From: a virus
Direction: 5' to 3' (one strand)
IMG/VR virus record: IMGVR_UViG_3300047409_000225
Span: 1 to 27,159 of that record
DNA: 27,159 bases
Shown: positions 3,973-18,233 of the stretch, in pieces
How positions within the stretch are numbered: position 1 is the first letter of the stretch
Layout of the letters: each line of letters starts with the position of its first letter
Position numbers and translations under genes: made by a program
Notes under the pieces: generated by a model
What the model saw: the letters and a program-made list of their open reading frames with translations, nothing else
Database searches by the model: none
What the model was told of the DNA's origin: nothing

Positions 3973-4653
3973 CTACGGGGTCTCCTTGGCGTATGCCTTG
4001 AAGGGGAAGGTGGACTTGTACTTGAGCTTGTTCCAGAGCTCGATGTCCGCGGCCTCGAAGGACCGGATCATCAACTGCTCCAGCATCTGGGCATGCTCCT
4101 TGGTGTCGACCAGGGCTACTCGCACCAGAAGATTGCGCTCTTCCATCCAGTACTTCCGCCAGGCCTGCTGCTCAGCAGCTGGCATGGTTTTGTAGGCCTC
4201 ACGGTTCTCGTCGGTGAGATCCCGCAATGCCTCGGCGACTACCACGTCTACTGGGTTGACATGGCTATGGGTTCGGCCATTGGCGTAATCACCCAGTCGC
4301 CGGCCCAGGTTTTCAGACATGCCGATGTATGCGGGCTTCAAGGTCCCGTCCACCGGGTTGTAGATGACGTACACCCCGGTCCAGTCACCGATGCGACCTA
4401 CCTGCCACCAGGGACTGTTCGGCCCATGCCCCACTTGACGCAGCCTGTACTCCAGCCACTCTGCGGCGGGCTCCGTGATCTCCAGCGATCTATCCCAAGC
4501 ACTGAGCTTCTTCGGTACGTAGGTAGAGACCTTGGCCCGGACCGCTGGTACGTGCACCGAAGCCGGGGGTAGGAAGTACCCCGCTGGGGGGCTGCTCGAG
4601 CCGACTTGGGTGCTCTGACCTACCTCTGTTGCTGTTCGCTGTTCGACGCTCAT
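3973..4653 (-). CDS. GIY-YIG endonuclease
   Basis: A 226-residue protein with a GIY-YIG nuclease core: GVY at 93-95, YIG at 109-111, Arg118/Arg119 in the following helix, Glu192 in LEQLMIRSF as the likely metal-binding glutamate, and Asn208. These are the catalytic signatures of the family, which cuts DNA with a divalent metal. Residues 1-85 are an additional N-terminal region rich in Pro and Ser that might bind DNA. No intron or intein-like neighbour is visible, so it may be a free-standing homing-type nuclease or an attacker of host or rival DNA. The start has an AAGGAGG site 3 nt upstream and follows a strong hairpin (4676-4701). Confidence 0.88.
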   Translation of the reverse strand: MSVEQRTATEVGQSTQVGSSSPPAGYFLPPASVHVPAVRAKVSTYVPKKLSAWDRSLEITEPAAEWLEYRLRQVGHGPNSPWWQVGRIGDWTGVYVIYNPVDGTLKPAYIGMSENLGRRLGDYANGRTHSHVNPVDVVVAEALRDLTDENREAYKTMPAAEQQAWRKYWMEERNLLVRVALVDTKEHAQMLEQLMIRSFEAADIELWNKLKYKSTFPFKAYAKETP

Positions 4654-4675: not shown

Positions 4676-4701
4676 GGCCCCCCACCATGTGGTGGGGGGC
4701 C
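4676..4701 (-). terminator. Strong 12-bp hairpin upstream of the GIY-YIG gene
   Basis: GGCCCCCCACCA pairs perfectly with TGGTGGGGGGCC across a 2-nt gap (in practice 11 pairs with a 4-nt loop). On the minus strand ATTCGCATGTC follows, a variant of the box seen after the other leader hairpins. The U tract is short, so the hairpin may act as a weak terminator, an RNA processing site or a stability element between the 404-residue gene and the nuclease gene. Confidence 0.6.
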
Positions 4702-4713
4702 GCGGGGGTACTG

Positions 4714-5928
4714 CTACTCCTCCAGAGCCGTGAAGGCCTCGCGGAGGAGCGCGACCTTGGCCTTGAGGTTGGTGACCTCAGTGCCGAGCTCGACGATCTT
4801 GGTGCCGGACTTGGCGAGCTCCAGGCGCAGGGCCTTGACCTGCTCCTGTGCCTTCCTCAGCTCGAACTGGGCCTTCTCGAGCTGCTCGGTGTCGACCTTC
4901 GCCGGCTCGATGCCGACAGCCTCCTGGAGCTGGGTGATCACTGAGGTCACGCTCTCCGTGAGCGTGTTCATGCGCTTGGTCTCGAAGGCCTTCTGCCTAG
5001 CTGCCGGACCCCACATGTTGTCCGTGGGGCGGTGCCGGGTGCGGGTGTGACCGCCGGTGCCAGCCGGCTTCCCTACCCAGCCGTCGACGATGCACCTCAC
5101 GTCGACGCCGTTGGTCACGAAGATCTCGGACTTGGTGCCCTCGCTGTCCTTGTGACCCTTGCCGCGGCCCGTGTAGTACGGCACCCACTCGTCGGAGGCC
5201 ATGAGAGCGTCCAGCTTCGGCGTCTCACGCTCGTCCTCGTCGGCGGGCTCCGGCTCGGGGTGAGCCTTCTTAGCCGCCGGCGGCTGGTGCTCCTCGGAGT
5301 TCACAGTCTCCGCGAGCTCCTTGATCACCTCGGTGTTGACCTCCTCGACCACGGTCTGGGACTTCACGATCGGGGTGCCCTCGGGGATGCAGTGCTTCAC
5401 GAACCAGCCCTGGACCCGCTTGCGCTCGCCCTCGTTGGTGCCCGAGCGGACCGACAGCGGGTTAGTGCCGTCAGGCGGGTACAGCAGGATCTTGCTGCCC
5501 CTGATCTGGTACTTCACGCCGTACTGGTTGACGGCGGTGAGCACCACGTCAGCCACGTCGGCGTGATAGCCGCGCAGCTGCTTGCGCTCGATCCTGGGCT
5601 GATCCGGGGTACTGCTGGGGGTACTCATCGTGACTGGTTCCTTGTCGGGGTGAGGGAGAGGTGGCTTGAAGTTCTTGCCGGGATAGTCGTGGTCGAACGG
5701 TAGGCCGCACCAGCAGTAGTCGATGCTGCCGATGGTGTGCTCCGGCTTGACGGTCTGCGAACCGCCGTGCTTACCGGTGGGGAGCGCGCGGAAGGCAGCC
5801 GACTCCAAGCCGCTGCCAGCCTCGGCCCGTCCTGCGTCCCGTCCGGCGTAGTAAGCCCGGCGGGTGGAGGCGGACATGTCGACGACGTTGAACTCTTCCT
5901 CGTCGTCCTCATCCGGCTTGGTGCTCAT
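4714..5928 (-). CDS. Multidomain coiled-coil phage protein
   Basis: A 404-residue protein. Residues 1-95 are acidic, then basic with CWCG (72-75). Residues 110-180 have the layout GYHADV ... YQIRGSKILLYPP ... VQGWFVKHC, which resembles in outline a small alpha/beta HicA or dsRBD-like fold, though this is only an impression. Residues 200-235 are a Pro/Glu/Ala linker. Residues 245-310 are a basic region (WVPYYTGRGKGHKDSEG, HTRTRHRPTDN). Residues 318-404 are a heptad-rich coiled coil. An in-frame ATG at 5628 (residue 101) with an AAGGA site could give a shorter 304-residue form. The start is coupled to the upstream gene by ATGA. Function unknown; nucleic-acid binding is inferred. Confidence 0.78.
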   Translation of the reverse strand: MSTKPDEDDEEEFNVVDMSASTRRAYYAGRDAGRAEAGSGLESAAFRALPTGKHGGSQTVKPEHTIGSIDYCWCGLPFDHDYPGKNFKPPLPHPDKEPVTMSTPSSTPDQPRIERKQLRGYHADVADVVLTAVNQYGVKYQIRGSKILLYPPDGTNPLSVRSGTNEGERKRVQGWFVKHCIPEGTPIVKSQTVVEEVNTEVIKELAETVNSEEHQPPAAKKAHPEPEPADEDERETPKLDALMASDEWVPYYTGRGKGHKDSEGTKSEIFVTNGVDVRCIVDGWVGKPAGTGGHTRTRHRPTDNMWGPAARQKAFETKRMNTLTESVTSVITQLQEAVGIEPAKVDTEQLEKAQFELRKAQEQVKALRLELAKSGTKIVELGTEVTNLKAKVALLREAFTALEE

Positions 5929-8771: not shown

Positions 8772-8800
8772 ATTATGACACATTTATGGCATTTATGCCA
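8772..8800 (-). promoter_or_regulatory. Promoter with extended -10 and an operator-like palindrome
   Basis: On the minus strand, TGT-CATAAT (8780-8772) is an extended -10. The 17-bp-spaced -35 position (8800-8795) reads TGGCAT and is weak. It is exactly one arm of the perfect palindrome TGGCAT-TT-ATGCCA (8787-8800). This suggests a regulator, repressor or activator bound over the -35. The surrounding 8733-8836 region is AT-rich for this genome and I see no gene in it. Confidence 0.6.
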
Positions 8801-9963: not shown

Positions 9964-10181
9964 GACGCCTCCGCTGCGCCGGTGCCCATCGCGCTCAGAC
10001 AGGTCAGACAGTCGACGCCGTAGCTGACAGGGACCTTCACCAGGTTCTTCCGGCTCCCACACAGCATGATCGGGAAGTCGGCGACCACCGGCTTCTCGTC
10101 CTTGGTGCCGACGTACCAGCGCTGCCGGCGGGCGTGGACCTTCTTGGACGGTGACATCCAGAGCTCGATCCCCTCACTCAT
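9960..10181 (-). CDS. Small protein, possible zinc site
   Basis: A 73-residue protein from ATG 10181, with an 8-bp overlap with the upstream stop (GATGAGTGA, the same junction style as at 1587-1594). It is basic (SPSKKVHARRQRWYVG) with Cys41 and a C-terminal DCLTC. The layout MLCGSRK ... DCLTCLSAMG resembles small phage proteins with one zinc site. Function unknown. Confidence 0.7.
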   Translation of the reverse strand: MSEGIELWMSPSKKVHARRQRWYVGTKDEKPVVADFPIMLCGSRKNLVKVPVSYGVDCLTCLSAMGTGAAEAS

Positions 10182-10545
10182 CGGGATCGAACCCGGCCCT
10201 CTCGATCTTCTCGGCCTTGGCGAAGACATCCAGCACGTCCTGCTTGCCCTTGCAGTCGTTCTTGGAGTCGTTCCAGGACCAGATGAGGGACTGGATCGGG
10301 TACTGGCTGTTGGCATACCGCTCGGCCAGGCTGGGCTCCAGCACGCCAGCGATCCGGTTGACGGCCTTTATCACCAGCGGGTGCTTTTCGAGAACGACGT
10401 TCGTCTCCAGTCCGTTGCCGAGCAGGAGACCACCCAGGGCACAGGCCTGACGACCGTTCGGGCCCACCAGATTCCCACGCCACCAGCCGTTCTTCTCGAT
10501 GTACTCGCGCCCGTTGGCGATGGCGTCGGCTACCTCGTCACTCAT
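10174..10545 (-). CDS. DUF6197-like protein (paralogue 1)
   Basis: A 123-residue protein. The N-terminal helix EVADAIANGREYIEKNGWWRG is followed by ACALGGLLLGNG and, near the C-terminus, WNDSKN ... QDVLDVFAKAEKIER. The order helix-GW / C-x-x-G-L / WND / D-V-L-D-x-x-x-K-A-E matches the DUF6197-type pattern known from actinobacteria and their phages, for which I know no function. It lies directly downstream of a close paralogue, overlapping it by 8 bp. Confidence 0.76.
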   Translation of the reverse strand: MSDEVADAIANGREYIEKNGWWRGNLVGPNGRQACALGGLLLGNGLETNVVLEKHPLVIKAVNRIAGVLEPSLAERYANSQYPIQSLIWSWNDSKNDCKGKQDVLDVFAKAEKIERAGFDPDE

Positions 10546-10888
10546 CTGGGTTCACTCCTCCGTTGCGCTCGATCTTCTCGGCCTTGGCCAGCAGGTCCAG
10601 GACCTGCTGCTCGGTGGTGGACTCCGCGTCGTTCCAGTCCGGGATGGACTGGTTGATGCCCTCTGCCCTCATCGTCCGGTAGATGGCGACGACCGCCGTC
10701 GCTCCCACCTCGCTCTTGAAGATCCCGGTTTGAAGACCCGGCTGCCTCTGCAACAGCCCCAGGGTGCAGGTCAGCGCACCCATCACGCAGGCCTTGCTGT
10801 CCGGACCGAACAGGGTGCCCTTCCACAGGCCGTACTTCTCGATGTACTCCCTGGTCGCGGCCAGAGCGTCTGCTACCTCGTCACTCAT
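10538..10888 (-). CDS. DUF6197-like protein (paralogue 2)
   Basis: A 116-residue protein with AAAGGAG upstream of ATG 10888. It starts MSDEVADALAATREYIEKYG, almost the same as paralogue 1, then has ACVMGALTCTLG and PDWNDAESTTEQQVLDLLAKAEKIERNGG. The middle is diverged from its neighbour. Two adjacent copies sharing the first 20 residues and the last 25 point to tandem duplication. Confidence 0.78.
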   Translation of the reverse strand: MSDEVADALAATREYIEKYGLWKGTLFGPDSKACVMGALTCTLGLLQRQPGLQTGIFKSEVGATAVVAIYRTMRAEGINQSIPDWNDAESTTEQQVLDLLAKAEKIERNGGVNPDE

Positions 10889-11126
10889 GGCTCTTCTCCT
10901 TTCCGGGCGGAATGACGCGGGTTAGCGCGTCGTGAATCGTCCACATGTCCTCGGTGGCACGAGTGCGTCCGGCGTCGTCGCCCGCCGTGTGGATCACCTG
11001 ATCGAACAGTCGGCCCAGCGCGGCAAGAGCCGCGTCATTCTTGGCGGTGGGGTCATGCGGGCACGGCTGCGGGCAGTCCAGCGAGCACAAGTGCAGTGCG
11101 TCGTTCTCGGCGGTGTGCTCACTCAT
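10881..11126 (-). CDS. Small Cys-rich protein sharing ends with the gene at 9513-9674
   Basis: An 81-residue protein from ATG 11126. It starts SEHTAENDA, has a Cys/His/Pro stretch (LCSLDCPQPCPHDPTA), a helix (ALAALGRLFDQVIHTAGDD) and ends TRVIPPGKEKSHE. The shared ends and differing middle relative to 9513-9674 make this pair a mosaic. It is sandwiched between two DUF6197-like genes. Function unknown. Confidence 0.72.
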   Translation of the reverse strand: MSEHTAENDALHLCSLDCPQPCPHDPTAKNDAALAALGRLFDQVIHTAGDDAGRTRATEDMWTIHDALTRVIPPGKEKSHE

Positions 11127-11559
11127 CGACGTTCCCCGACCTGGCGTCCTTCTCGGCCTTCATGAAGGCGTCCAGGACCTCCTGCTCGGTGCGGTCCTCG
11201 TTGTCGTTCCAGTGGGTGACCGCGTTGATGGTGCAGGAGCAGATCCCATCCTTGGTGCACAAGCCGGGGGTGTGACCGACATCTAGGTCGGCAGCCTTGG
11301 CCAGGGCGTAGGCCAGAGCCAGGGTGCGGCGGTCGGAGGAGCAGTCCTGCTCGTCGATGCCCAGCTCGTAGAGGCCAGCACCCATCGCGCAGTAGCCCAG
11401 CACGTCATAGTCGATGATCTCGGCCTCGTCGCTATCGTCGTCGTAGGCGTACTTGTTCTCGACCAGGCGGAACTCGCCCTTGACCCAGCCCTCCTCCTTC
11501 AGCCGGTCCCGGGACTTGGCCAGCAGGTCGGCCAGCTCATCGTTCGACACGTCATACAT
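11119..11559 (-). CDS. DUF6197-like protein (paralogue 3)
   Basis: A 146-residue protein from ATG 11559 with an AAAGGA site; an ATG 12 codons upstream lacks one. It has an N-terminal helix NDELADLLAKSRDRLKEEGWVKG, an acidic insert (DDDSDEAE), GYCAMGAGLYELG, extra Cys residues (LCTKDGICSC), and THWNDNEDRTEQEVLDAFMKAEK at the end. This is the most family-like of the three copies because of the intact WND-x-x-x-RT-x-x-EVLD block. Confidence 0.8.
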   Translation of the reverse strand: MYDVSNDELADLLAKSRDRLKEEGWVKGEFRLVENKYAYDDDSDEAEIIDYDVLGYCAMGAGLYELGIDEQDCSSDRRTLALAYALAKAADLDVGHTPGLCTKDGICSCTINAVTHWNDNEDRTEQEVLDAFMKAEKDARSGNVDE

Positions 11560-11884
11560 CTTGGGTTCCTTTCGGGTTGTTCTTGCACACATCACAGATG
11601 CCGAACGCGATCAGGACCTGACGGTCCTCGACGGTGCGTACGGCGTGGCCGGTGTAGAAGTCCACCGGTCCGTCCTCGGGGCAGTACCGACCGCAGTGGT
11701 CGCAGGAGCGCTCCCAGCGGTCTTGCTCCTCAGCGGTGGCACCGGGATCGGGCTCGTTGAGGAAGGTCATCACGAACGGCGCGTCCGCGGAGGCAGCGGC
11801 ATCGAGCATCTCCGTCTTGATGTCGGCGATGCGCTGGTCGATCTGAGCGATGAGCCAGGGCGGCTCCTCGACCGGCTCGATCAT
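11552..11884 (-). CDS. Zinc-binding actinophage protein
   Basis: A 110-residue protein, ATG 11884 coupled to the upstream stop. The N-terminal helical region is followed by Cys61-x2-Cys64-x3-Cys68 (SCDHCGRYCPEDGPVDF) and Cys97-x2-Cys100 (IAFGICDVC). The pattern suggests one treble-clef or ribbon-like zinc site. The arrangement looks like a recurrent actinobacteriophage family without known role. Confidence 0.76.
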   Translation of the reverse strand: MIEPVEEPPWLIAQIDQRIADIKTEMLDAAASADAPFVMTFLNEPDPGATAEEQDRWERSCDHCGRYCPEDGPVDFYTGHAVRTVEDRQVLIAFGICDVCKNNPKGTQDV

Positions 11885-12252
11885 GTGTCCTCCGAGAAGT
11901 GCTCGAGCTTCTCCAGCAGACCGCCGGCCTGGATCTCTGTGACCACGATCGGCTTCATGACCTGCTTGTCGGGCACGATCACGACCTCGGATGGATCGGG
12001 CGGCGGGAGAGGGCCCATCGGCACCTCGTGCTCCTCCACCATGTAGCTCAGCTCCTCGTAGTGGTACTCCAGAGCCTCGGAGATGGAGTCGATATCTCCG
12101 TAGCCCTGGATGTTCTCGTCGTGACCACAGTCGTCCTCGTTGCAGCCGTCGAGCCAGTTCGAGGCCAGATGTCGATAGGCGTCTAACTGCGTGGAGTGGA
12201 GCGTGGCGTAGACCTCACAGTCGTAGTGAGTCCACATCACATAGGTCCTCAT
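11881..12252 (-). CDS. Acidic protein, first gene of the leftward run
   Basis: A 123-residue protein with a strong AAAGGAG site 5 nt before ATG 12252. It starts MRTYVMWTHYDCEVYATLHS, has CNEDDCGHDEN (a possible metal-binding Cys/Asp/His cluster at about residues 37-46), an acidic helix with many Glu and Tyr, and a beta-like C-terminus. Function unknown. It is reached only after the long leader and terminator-like hairpin at 12290-12329. Confidence 0.75.
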   Translation of the reverse strand: MRTYVMWTHYDCEVYATLHSTQLDAYRHLASNWLDGCNEDDCGHDENIQGYGDIDSISEALEYHYEELSYMVEEHEVPMGPLPPPDPSEVVIVPDKQVMKPIVVTEIQAGGLLEKLEHFSEDT

Positions 12253-12289: not shown

Positions 12290-12329
12290 CCCGGTGTCGA
12301 GGATGGTATGAACCACCTCCGACACCGGG
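12290..12329 (-). terminator. Strong terminator-like hairpin in the leader of the leftward run
   Basis: CCCGGTGTCG pairs with CGACACCGGG, and the stem continues inward as AGG-a-TGGT with ACCA-CCT (one bulged base on each side). On the minus strand GTCTTTTTTCATGTCCGGAC follows, with six T residues and the shared box (12282-12271). This has the stem and U tract of an intrinsic terminator, yet it lies about 80 nt downstream of the promoter at 12412-12440 and before the first gene. The leader 12330-12405 also holds CCCCC-GCAT-GGGGG and GAGG/CCTC hairpins and no gene. Confidence 0.72.
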
Positions 12330-12442: not shown

Positions 12443-12464
12443 GCCCCGTTCCGAAGAACGGGGC
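12443..12464 (-). terminator. UUCG-capped terminator of the tail operon and small RNA
   Basis: On the minus strand GCCCCGTTC and GAACGGGGC form a perfect 9-bp stem closed by TTCG on a C-G pair, the very stable C(UUCG)G tetraloop. CTCTTGTGC follows, so the U tract is weak. It ends transcripts arriving from the tail genes and from the promoter at 12630-12658. Confidence 0.7.
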
Positions 12465-12625
12465 TTGCTCTGGAGGTCCGGGTGCCCCCCTTTCGTGACT
12501 ACTTGTCACGGGGGTCTTACCCCGGATGACTCCGGCTCGGTGGGCTTCTGGCCGTATACGGCGTTCCCTTCCGCCCTGCGTCCGAGCTTCTGAGTGGTTC
12601 GCACTGAAGCTACTTTCACTCATAT
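12443..12625 (-). ncRNA. Candidate structured non-coding RNA (about 180 nt)
   Basis: A near-consensus promoter (12630-12658) would start a transcript near 12623 that ends at the UUCG hairpin. Inside lies a nested stem: CCGGG (12525-12521) with CCCGG (12482-12478), CCCCC (12514-12510) with GGGGG (12490-12486), and GTGAC (12509-12505) with GTCAC (12499-12495), with an AAGTA loop and a GAAA bulge. No convincing gene fits. A frame opening with ATG at 12623 exists, but it runs through the terminator and the next promoter. The target is unknown. It could be a trans-acting regulator or simply a leader remnant. Confidence 0.5.
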
Positions 12626-12629
12626 ACCT

Positions 12630-12658
12630 ATATTACCCCATACACGACATTATGTCAA
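12630..12658 (-). promoter_or_regulatory. Near-consensus promoter overlapping the tail-fibre stop codon
   Basis: On the minus strand, TTGACA (12658-12653, a perfect -35), a 17-bp spacer and TAATAT (12635-12630, four of six -10 bases). The -35 includes the TGA stop of the tail-fibre gene. It is the best -35 I found in the window. Confidence 0.72.
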
Positions 12659-14916
12659 CCCACTGTGCGCACGGGATACCACAGACCGTCGTAGTCCAGA
12701 CACTGCAGGGAGCCGGTTCCGGCCACATTGGACATGCCCGGGGCGAACCGCTGACCACCGCTGCTGAGAGTGGAGGTGGTGACCATGGGGAGCACCGCCC
12801 AGCGCCCCCGCACGGCCACCAGGACCAAGGTAGAGCTGGAGACCAGGTTGAGTATCCCCTGGGGAGCTCGGAGGCCGGCCAGGGAGAGGCTCGAGACCGA
12901 GCTCATCACCAATATCGGGGAGACGCTGCGGACCGGGGACAGCACCAGCGATGAGGTGCTGGTCATCGCCAGGGTGCCGGCGATGACTCCGAACCCAGTA
13001 GCGGCCACCGTCAGGCTGGAGGTGGCCACCATCGCCAGGGTCGGCTGAGCTGTCCTCAGACCCGCCGTGGAGAAGGCAGAAACGCTGCTCAGAGCGAGAG
13101 CAGCGTCCTTCTGGACCACTGCCCCAGCGACCAGCTGGGAGCTCGCTGTGAGGGCCAGGGTGGGCTGCTGGGCCCTGATTCCACCGAAGGTCAGGGAGGA
13201 AGTGCTGGTGAAGCCGACAGAGGCGCTCTGCACCCCGATCCCGGTGGCCAGAGCGGTGAACGAAGAGGTGGCCACCATCGCCAGCGTGGGCTGTGCCGTC
13301 CGACCCCCAGCAAGGCTCAGTGAGCTCAGCGCGGTCAGTGGTAGCAGCGCAGGCTGCTCCCTGACTGCACTGAGGGCCAAGCTGGAGACAGCGCTCATCG
13401 CCAGAGCAGAAGGCTGTGCCCTGACCCCACCGAAGGTCAGGCTCGAGGCACTGGACATCACCAGATCGGCGTCCTGGGTGACCGGGACACTCGTGGAAGC
13501 CCACTTGGTGGCCAGGTAGTCCTGTACCTGCGCGCGCTCCGGGTCGGTGAGGGTCCGGTCGTAGATGACGACCTCGCCGATCCATCCGTTCATCCCGTAG
13601 GGGGCGAGGGAGTTGGCACCGAGCTGGAAGTAGGCCGAGCTGGATCCCGGGGTCCACGCCGAGGTGACCTGGGTGCCGTCCACCTCCAACCAATGAGCGT
13701 GAGCGGACGTGTTGCACCACAGCGTCACCATCTGGCCGACCCCGCTCCACGGCACCCCGCTGTCCAGGTCGGGTGTGGTGTAGGTGTGGATGGTGCCGCC
13801 GGTGCTGTAGGTCTGGAGGTAGGGGTCGGTGTTCTGCAGTTGGGTGGTGGCGAAGGCACCGATGCTGCCGATGGTCCTGACCACCTGGAAGATGGTGCGA
13901 TCTCCGACCGTCCGACCTGGGCTGACCTTCATCTCGGTGACACCGCTCTGACCGAACCGGACCGCCGGGTGCCCGTTGATCCCAGCAGCGTCGTAGTACG
14001 CCGTGGCGGCGGAGGGAGTGGCGTCGAAACCGTTGCCTGAGGAGTCCGGCCAGGATGCTAGCGGTGCACCGTCAGCCAGGGCGAGGCTGGTTGCGTCCAT
14101 CCAGAACAGCATCCCGGTGAGATGGGTCGGGGTGAACGGTCCACCAGCGACCACTGTCCCCTCCAGGGACAGGACCGAGGTGCTGGACATCGCCAGGGTG
14201 CCGGCCTGCACCGGAGTCCGCCACGCAGTCGCAGTGAAGGTAGAGGCCGAGCTCATCGCCAGGGTGCCCTGGACCGCAGGAGTCAGGTCTGCAACCGCGG
14301 TGAAGGACGACGCGCTGGACATCGCCAGCGTGCCCTGCTGGGTGGGTGCAGAGGCGCACTTGACCTCGACCTGACACTGGGTCCAGGTGGTGCCGCGCGA
14401 GATGGACACCGTGGCCGACGCACCATCGGCGGTGCTGTTCTTGGTGCAGGTCATGAAGCTGGGCTGGGTACCAGAGGCCTGCCGAGAGGTGTGGTTGGCC
14501 GGAGCAGTGATCACCGAGTCCGCGCGGGTGTGGTTCAGACCTCTGATCAGCTGTGAGCTGCCGTCTGTGTCCACCAGGGTGACCGCCGGGAACACCGGGT
14601 TGGTGGAGTTGCCGTTGGTGATCGAGGTGACCCCGATCGGGCTGGTGGTGTCCTGACCACGGATCGTCAGCGCATGGGTCACCGCGGCGCTGGTGAACGT
14701 GGGCATCGTCCAGACGCCGTCGTAGACCCGGTACTGCAGCCGTGAGGCCGGGGTCGCCGCGTTGTTGTTGATGTTGGTCCAGCCCGCAGGCAACGCGGGC
14801 GTGGTGGCGCTCGAGGAGTACGCCAGAGCCACCACGATGTCGCCACTGGTGGTGCCTGCGGGCAGGGCAGCCGTCGTGGTGCCTGCGGACGAGGCGATGT
14901 AGGTGGTGACGGCCAT
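12655..14916 (-). CDS. Tail fibre / minor tail protein with LamG-like domain and repeats
   Basis: A 753-residue virion protein, probably a receptor-binding fibre at the tail tip. Residues 1-187 are a beta-rich N-terminal domain (GTTTAALPAGTTSGDIVVALAYS). Residues 194-255 hold three repeats with the core LAMSSxSxL. Residues 260-478 look like a LamG/concanavalin-type jelly roll (LFWMDATSL, WPDSSGNGFDAT, GWIGEVVIYDRTLTDPERAQVQDYLATKW), a fold that often binds sugars. Residues 481-735 hold about twelve further 20-22 residue repeats. The end is LQCLDYDGLWYPV. The ATG has GGGGGCGG upstream and lies 12 bp after the previous stop. Host-binding specificity is inferred, not shown. Confidence 0.85.
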   Translation of the reverse strand: MAVTTYIASSAGTTTAALPAGTTSGDIVVALAYSSSATTPALPAGWTNINNNAATPASRLQYRVYDGVWTMPTFTSAAVTHALTIRGQDTTSPIGVTSITNGNSTNPVFPAVTLVDTDGSSQLIRGLNHTRADSVITAPANHTSRQASGTQPSFMTCTKNSTADGASATVSISRGTTWTQCQVEVKCASAPTQQGTLAMSSASSFTAVADLTPAVQGTLAMSSASTFTATAWRTPVQAGTLAMSSTSVLSLEGTVVAGGPFTPTHLTGMLFWMDATSLALADGAPLASWPDSSGNGFDATPSAATAYYDAAGINGHPAVRFGQSGVTEMKVSPGRTVGDRTIFQVVRTIGSIGAFATTQLQNTDPYLQTYSTGGTIHTYTTPDLDSGVPWSGVGQMVTLWCNTSAHAHWLEVDGTQVTSAWTPGSSSAYFQLGANSLAPYGMNGWIGEVVIYDRTLTDPERAQVQDYLATKWASTSVPVTQDADLVMSSASSLTFGGVRAQPSALAMSAVSSLALSAVREQPALLPLTALSSLSLAGGRTAQPTLAMVATSSFTALATGIGVQSASVGFTSTSSLTFGGIRAQQPTLALTASSQLVAGAVVQKDAALALSSVSAFSTAGLRTAQPTLAMVATSSLTVAATGFGVIAGTLAMTSTSSLVLSPVRSVSPILVMSSVSSLSLAGLRAPQGILNLVSSSTLVLVAVRGRWAVLPMVTTSTLSSGGQRFAPGMSNVAGTGSLQCLDYDGLWYPVRTVG
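12712..13476 (-). repeat. About twelve 60-66 bp coding repeats in the tail fibre
   Basis: Twelve units of 20-22 residues with the core [LVP]xMxSxSSLxxxGxRxxQ follow the LamG-like domain, and three related units precede it at 14152-14337. Two 22-residue units are nearly identical (both begin AQPTLAMVATSS), and 20 bp are identical at 13019-13038 and 13265-13284. This is consistent with block duplication. The units likely stack as a beta solenoid shaft. Confidence 0.75.
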
Positions 14917-18176: not shown

Positions 18177-18205
18177 TTGCACTCACTCCATGTACTACAT
18201 ATGGT
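18177..18205 (+). promoter_or_regulatory. Promoter of the replication operon
   Basis: TTGCAC (18177-18182), a 17-bp spacer and TATGGT (18200-18205). Each hexamer matches consensus at three or four positions. The predicted start near 18212 leaves about 22 nt before the helicase GTG (18234), which has an AGGAG site. The -10 sits inside the palindrome at 18191-18213, so the promoter is probably repressible. Confidence 0.58.
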
Positions 18206-18213
18206 GTAGTGCA
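18191..18213. promoter_or_regulatory. 23-bp operator-like palindrome at the replication promoter
   Basis: TGTACTACA and TGTAGTGCA flank TATGG: 9-bp arms with one mismatch and a perfect core ACTACA/TGTAGT. It covers the -10, the usual place for a repressor. The 10-mer TACACCATAT (18208-18199 on the minus strand) recurs at 8806-8815 just upstream of the 8772-8800 promoter. Confidence 0.6.
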
Positions 18214-18233
18214 TACATGACAGGAGACCCCGC

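Follow-up and report, generated by a model that had tools for sequence, protein, structure and literature searches.

A conserved two-hairpin RNA behind the promoter of a small-gene operon in GC-rich phages, and its possible action on RNA polymerase

The stretch of viral DNA analysed here (the window, a 27,159-base IMG/VR virus record) carries on its minus strand, in the gap between a structural gene that ends at 12655 and a small-gene operon that starts at 12252, a conserved locus for an RNA (RNA1) whose core of two hairpins, HP1 and HP2 (12535-12435, minus strand), is almost certainly a conserved RNA structure. With a probability of about 0.4, we read RNA1 by analogy as the 5′ leader of this early-type operon, which would act on RNA polymerase in the manner of the HK022 put RNA. 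The sequence-only reading had proposed a free-standing small RNA. Its picture of a structured, phage-specific, non-coding RNA with a promoter of its own is borne out by helices that covary across nine distinct phage sequences, by the conservation of the promoter and by reading frames that are not conserved, but the part that made it a free-standing RNA with a UUCG terminator is unsupported in the form proposed.

On the plus strand, the right half of the window encodes replication proteins: a DnaB-like helicase, a primase, a DnaE-type polymerase and a Cas4-like exonuclease. The left half, on the minus strand, holds the structural gene followed by the operon. The product of the structural gene (ORF 12655-14916, minus strand) is probably a tail protein; a search with it found no isolate or viral-contig relative and one weak match in G005. 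The early type of the operon is a guess at timing from its gene content. Its first gene (11881-12252, minus strand) encodes 123 aa and has a relative in the contig L023 that is 57% identical; close to the operon start there are three DUF6197/phrog_762 paralogues (11119-11595, 10538-10888 and 10174-10545, minus strand), and a GIY-YIG endonuclease domain lies inside the operon (3973-4653, minus strand).

A DNA search of isolate phages was empty, and relatives were reached through the DnaE protein, which led to metagenomic contigs, the closest at 77-83% identity; one further contig was reached through the first operon gene. Regions homologous to the gap were examined in five contigs, and six cores were aligned with MAFFT. 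Each folded separately, all six give the same two hairpins, and 12 of 21 pairs in this alignment show changes on both sides that preserve pairing, compared with 4.6 in shuffles, a signal that is abolished by sliding the partners. The covariance model built on these six cores (R1) was scanned over a first set of 50 related contigs and phage records and a second set of 40, yielding two members beyond the training set (E = 1e-13 and 5e-12), the latter present in two contigs whose sequences do not differ in the part that was read. A ninth member (L160) was found by a pattern scan based mainly on HP2 and has an R1 E-value of 1e-16. In one of the added members (L124), GGAG/CUCC in helix P1 of HP1 is replaced by GUAG/CUAC. 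Among the nine sequences, 14 of 25 pairs covary on both sides against 6.4 in shuffles, in an alignment that was fitted to R1 and hence is biased towards the model, whereas the six-sequence alignment was not so fitted. Compensatory changes, which the sequence-only reading had proposed to look for in its three stems, are present in every helix, and a single strong copy of the core occurs in each genome that was searched over its full length.

No relative was found in Rfam, in 50,697 phage records or in 84,980 genomes. No Rfam 15 family matched the window at or above its gathering score, and the sole match among the relatives was a tRNA in L023. When the window region and the regions from L024 and L026 were searched by BLASTN against the 50,697 phage records, nothing was returned, and L023 matched through its tRNA only. 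Judged by DnaE, Gordonia and Brevibacterium phages are the closest isolates, with about 34% identity, and R1 found no member in Gordonia phage GMA6, Brevibacterium phage Cantare or Gordonia phage ChisanaKitsune. A scan of GTDB genomes with the P2 pattern (the second promoter, below) found none, and DnaE relatives in GTDB are only 26-27% identical. Pattern matches in the viral contigs L030, L031, L033, L034-L041, L155-L159, L161 and L162 were rejected on reading as chance, those in L155-L159, L161 and L162 also on R1 scores of 17-20 bits, and R1 matches of 17-23 bits in G049, G042, G002, G006, G031, G010 and G011 were taken as chance as well. The contig G020 (L127), left out of the counts, scores 23.6 bits beside a terminator with CATGTCC, has a DnaE 53% identical, and may be a distant member of the RNA1 family.

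The stretch 12623-12436 folds with an energy of -82.6 kcal/mol (z = -3.8; none of 200 shuffles was as good), and the core alone reaches z = -4.6. HP1 (12533-12472, minus strand) is the three-tier nested stem that had been noticed at first inspection, with fixed bulges and covariation in all three helices. Helix P1 (GGAG/CUCC) is followed by a conserved UCA bulge with an invariant CA, then by helix P2 (CCGG/CCGG), by an internal loop (UAAG/GCA) that reads UAAG on one side in seven of nine members (UUAAG or AUAAG in context) and GCA or GCG on the other, and by helix P3, the loop of which varies in length. A linker of about 3 nt with an invariant GA leads to HP2 (12468-12437, minus strand), which has the form rCA-GGCC..../....GGCC-(CU bulge)-UGU; changes on both sides affect 7 of its 13 pairs, its lower part is almost invariant, its upper part covaries freely, and its top and loop are variable, the UUCG loop being found in only two of the nine members (window and L023). 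Core length is 82-101 nt among members, and the whole RNA1 leader measures 98-206 nt. The 5′ part (12623-12536, minus strand) differs among relatives in sequence and in length (15-107 nt) and carries a 5′-terminal hairpin, UGAGUG/CACUCA; transcription starts, that of RNA1 at 12623 included, are predicted. In most leaders a hairpin begins within 4 nt of the predicted start, and 5′-end pairing slightly above that of shuffles (9.0 versus 8.0 paired of 15) hints weakly at a special pairing of leader 5′ ends. The conserved unpaired bases (UCA, UAAG, GCA and GA) stand in bulges, internal loops and linker, and neither hairpin loop keeps a constant length or sequence, as would be expected of a fold that docks on a partner and not of one that offers an antisense seed.

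Promoter P1 (12658-12630, minus strand), TTGACA-N17-TAATAT, is present as first described, overlapping the stop of the structural gene; it has 10 of 12 consensus bases and is the sole promoter-like site of such kind within 2.5 kb, with 0.4 expected. A -35/-10 pair with the same spacer motif, carried by TGTCGTGTAT in the window, precedes the core in all nine members, the motif varying slightly among them. Directly behind this promoter the core heads the same operon type in nine of nine, and after it there comes in each distinct member a short terminated leader and then the small-gene operon. The second promoter, P2 (12440-12412, minus strand), reads TTGTGC-N17-TATACT with the spacer motif TGTAGTGTAT; TTGTGC is found in all nine members and a clear -10 box in eight. 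Its -35 box (12440-12435) is part of the 3′ arm of HP2 (UUGUGC), an overlap that partly explains the primary conservation of this hairpin.

The 3′ end is where the sequence-only reading has to be revised. The TTCG-capped hairpin that it took for a terminator exists (12464-12443), but it lacks a U-run and its loop is not conserved; nor does the element end at 12443, as its 3′ arm continues into the P2 -35 box and a second leader with a true terminator follows (12405-12282). HP2 is a GC-rich hairpin, followed in the window by CTTGTGCATTTG without a U-run, and in all nine members CUUGUGC comes directly after its stem, with a U-run in none. A terminator scanner reported nothing at HP2, which is weak evidence since it also overlooked the strong terminator at 12290. 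HP2 probably does not act as a clean terminator; the U-rich stretches after the extended hairpin (UUUG, UUUUG) could give weak termination. With the U-run missing in nine of nine, the overlap with P2 and the invariable position at the head of the same operon type, a free-standing RNA with a UUCG terminator is unsupported in the form proposed.

RNA2, the second short leader (12405-12288, minus strand), comprises a 5′ hairpin, a middle hairpin and the terminator hairpin T2 (12329-12290), whose U-tract occupies 12287-12282. T2 is a strong terminator with a real U-run, immediately after which come CATGTCC and the first gene's ribosome site; eight members have 4-7 U among the 8 nt ahead of CATG, the tract of L123 (G007) having been read by eye because the script had met an earlier CATGCCC. 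The CATGTCC motif directly after the U-tract is enclosed in a hairpin, UUUCAUG-UCCGGACACC-CAUGAAA (12284-12261, minus strand), beside the ribosome site. Among 50 records, the pattern CTTTN{0,5}CATGTCC has 15 matches in eight contigs (the RNA1 group and G020 only), on one strand in each, and its reversed control has 2. A tRNA lies inside RNA2 of L023, between P2 and T2 (5815-5880; RF00005, 48 bits; uncalled by ARAGORN), and is absent from the window.

Further modules of internal promoter, short leader, terminator and CATGTCC are found within the operon at 8800-8640 and at 891-760 (minus strand). The order promoter, short leader starting with a hairpin, terminator, CATGTCC and gene also recurs in related contigs (L139, L138, L143 and others). 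The internal promoter near 8775 has a palindrome, TGGCATAAATGCCA (8800-8771, minus strand), just 5′ of its -10 box, a different operator-like site from those considered below. In the better-covered sequences (window, G013, G005, G001 and G014) three to eight strong intrinsic terminators point in the direction of the operon, and fewer were counted in the short parts of G017 and G018 that were read, the count depending on how much of the operon each contig covers; counting was by eye, as a stricter scan still lists hairpins inside genes and a loose one is too permissive in GC-rich coding DNA.

These downstream intrinsic terminators lie after internal promoters and ahead of the next genes. Together with the tie of the element to the head of one operon, and with conserved unpaired bases in bulges and linkers and not in loops, the internal terminators argue for a role in cis, and the placement of RNA1 suggests control over how far transcription runs. 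We propose that RNA1 would be transcribed from promoter P1, that HP1 and HP2 would fold as the leader emerges and bind RNA polymerase, either by themselves or together with a phage protein, and that the polymerase so modified would pass the terminators at 12.29, 8.69 and 0.80 kb, while polymerases starting at P2 or at internal promoters without the element would mostly stop, leaving short leader RNAs. The mode of action would then resemble that of HK022 put or of the conAn RNA of pLS20. A more specific form is put forward tentatively and is rather unlikely: the RNA would bring about put-like antitermination without any protein, would have no sequence relation to lambdoid put, and would head the early operon of GC-rich and probably actinobacterial phages, with short attenuated leaders at each internal promoter.

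Nearly as probable as the put-like reading is that RNA1 is a stable and abundant small RNA of about 100-210 nt, ending at or just after HP2 and acting in trans on host or phage, as cluster A mycobacteriophage leader RNAs may act. Promoter P1 is strong and conserved, most leaders have a hairpin near the 5′ end, and there is a parallel in the leader RNAs of L5, D29 and StarStuff (PMC5712189) and in the RNAs of WC1 (PMC10986025). Such an RNA is harder to reconcile with the missing U-run after HP2 in nine members, with two hairpin loops that offer no conserved unpaired seed, with the constant tie to the same operon type and with P2 starting within HP2. The trans-acting RNA and the put-like leader are not exclusive. 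Because the fold is defined and upheld by covariation, the promoter context is fixed and terminators lie downstream, cis antitermination and action in trans are separable with simple reporters.

The motif in the promoter spacers invites a third explanation, which we consider improbable: attenuated promoters of the lambda PR′/Q type, at which a phage protein on TGTnGTGyAT would let polymerase pass the leader terminators and the RNA fold would be secondary. This motif is common to promoters P1 and P2 with small variations, and recurs at 873-882, at a promoter near 891. Words like TGTAGTGCAT form an inverted array directly ahead of the DnaB-like gene (window 18190-18222; L140 about 468-508; L137 about 4689-4740), and the array resembles the P1/P2 spacer motif; it is likely the operator of a phage DNA-binding protein. 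The copies before the DnaB gene lie outside a recognisable promoter, however, which better fits an ordinary repressor or activator; moreover, a protein on the spacer would leave the covarying helices of HP1 unexplained, and the P2 spacer motif is missing in two members that retain HP1 and HP2.

That the leader senses a ligand or temperature like a riboswitch, with HP2 as its expression platform, is very unlikely, since the arrangement of a hairpin directly after a folded domain is accompanied by no alternative pairing of HP1 and HP2 in individual folds or in the consensus, no U-run after HP2 and no Rfam match. Least probable, and as a conserved protein largely refuted on sequence grounds, is a leaderless 124-aa product (frame 12623-12249, which exists in the window and which the sequence-only reading already ranked as the weaker reading) or a short leaderless peptide from the RNA1 5′ end: eight of nine members have AUGAG at the predicted start or one base away from it, but in several it is paired within the 5′ hairpin, the frame has no family match, it runs into the core in phase 0, 1 or 2 and has differing stops among the members translated, and core lengths differ by non-multiples of three. 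On these grounds the pattern that had been named as counter-evidence to the RNA, broken stems beside a conserved frame, is reversed, for the stems covary and the frame is unconserved.

Compared with known systems, RNA1 shares with the lambda PR′ leader (6S RNA), which works with Q, a promoter followed by a short leader RNA and a motif in the promoter spacer. In that comparison no Q-like or spacer-motif-binding protein was identified, and here, as distinct from lambda, the RNA structure itself is under selection. HK022 put carries RNA polymerase past terminators through the beta-prime zinc-binding domain. Put is about 70 nt long, has two stem-loops, lies just behind an early promoter and is active over at least 10 kb (PMC9378689). 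The likeness to putL and putR consists in two adjacent bulged stem-loops directly behind an early promoter and 5′ of terminators of the same operon (PMC9378689); in our phages HP1 and HP2 span 82-101 nt behind P1 in nine of nine members, a promoter that we infer to be early. There is one strong copy per genome here versus one per early operon in HK022, the RNA1 bearers are GC-rich phages unrelated to HK022, and their antitermination is proposed by analogy. R1 run on the whole HK022 record gave no match at E <= 10, and no kinship to put was found.

Internal terminators are regarded as a good sign of processive antitermination (PMC8955417), and conAn of pLS20-type plasmids resembles RNA1 in that an RNA element opens a long operon in which many intrinsic terminators are embedded, but it needs a protein partner, ConAn1, and belongs to Gram-positive conjugative plasmids; the two were compared by description only (PMC8955417). 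In L5, D29 and StarStuff, a very abundant and stable non-coding RNA without a canonical terminator arises from the early promoter, in a host-toxic region (PMC5712189), and WC1 makes similar RNAs (PMC10986025); the leader RNA of L5 and D29 has no known function (PMC5712189). The cluster A Pleft leader is like RNA1 in being non-coding, behind a strong promoter, at the head of a small-gene operon and without a canonical 3′ terminator (PMC5712189); its region is about 500 bp versus 98-206 nt here, and R1 run on D29 44000-49127 gave no match at E <= 10. The RNA family described here belongs to no Rfam family and has no match in HK022 or in the right end of D29. In some actinobacterial phages, early operons open with leader RNAs that rank among the most abundant transcripts made, and for whose role and 3′ ends there is no explanation (PMC5712189, PMC10986025). 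If RNA1 does act on RNA polymerase, RNA-driven antitermination would extend beyond the few systems that the papers cited here name.
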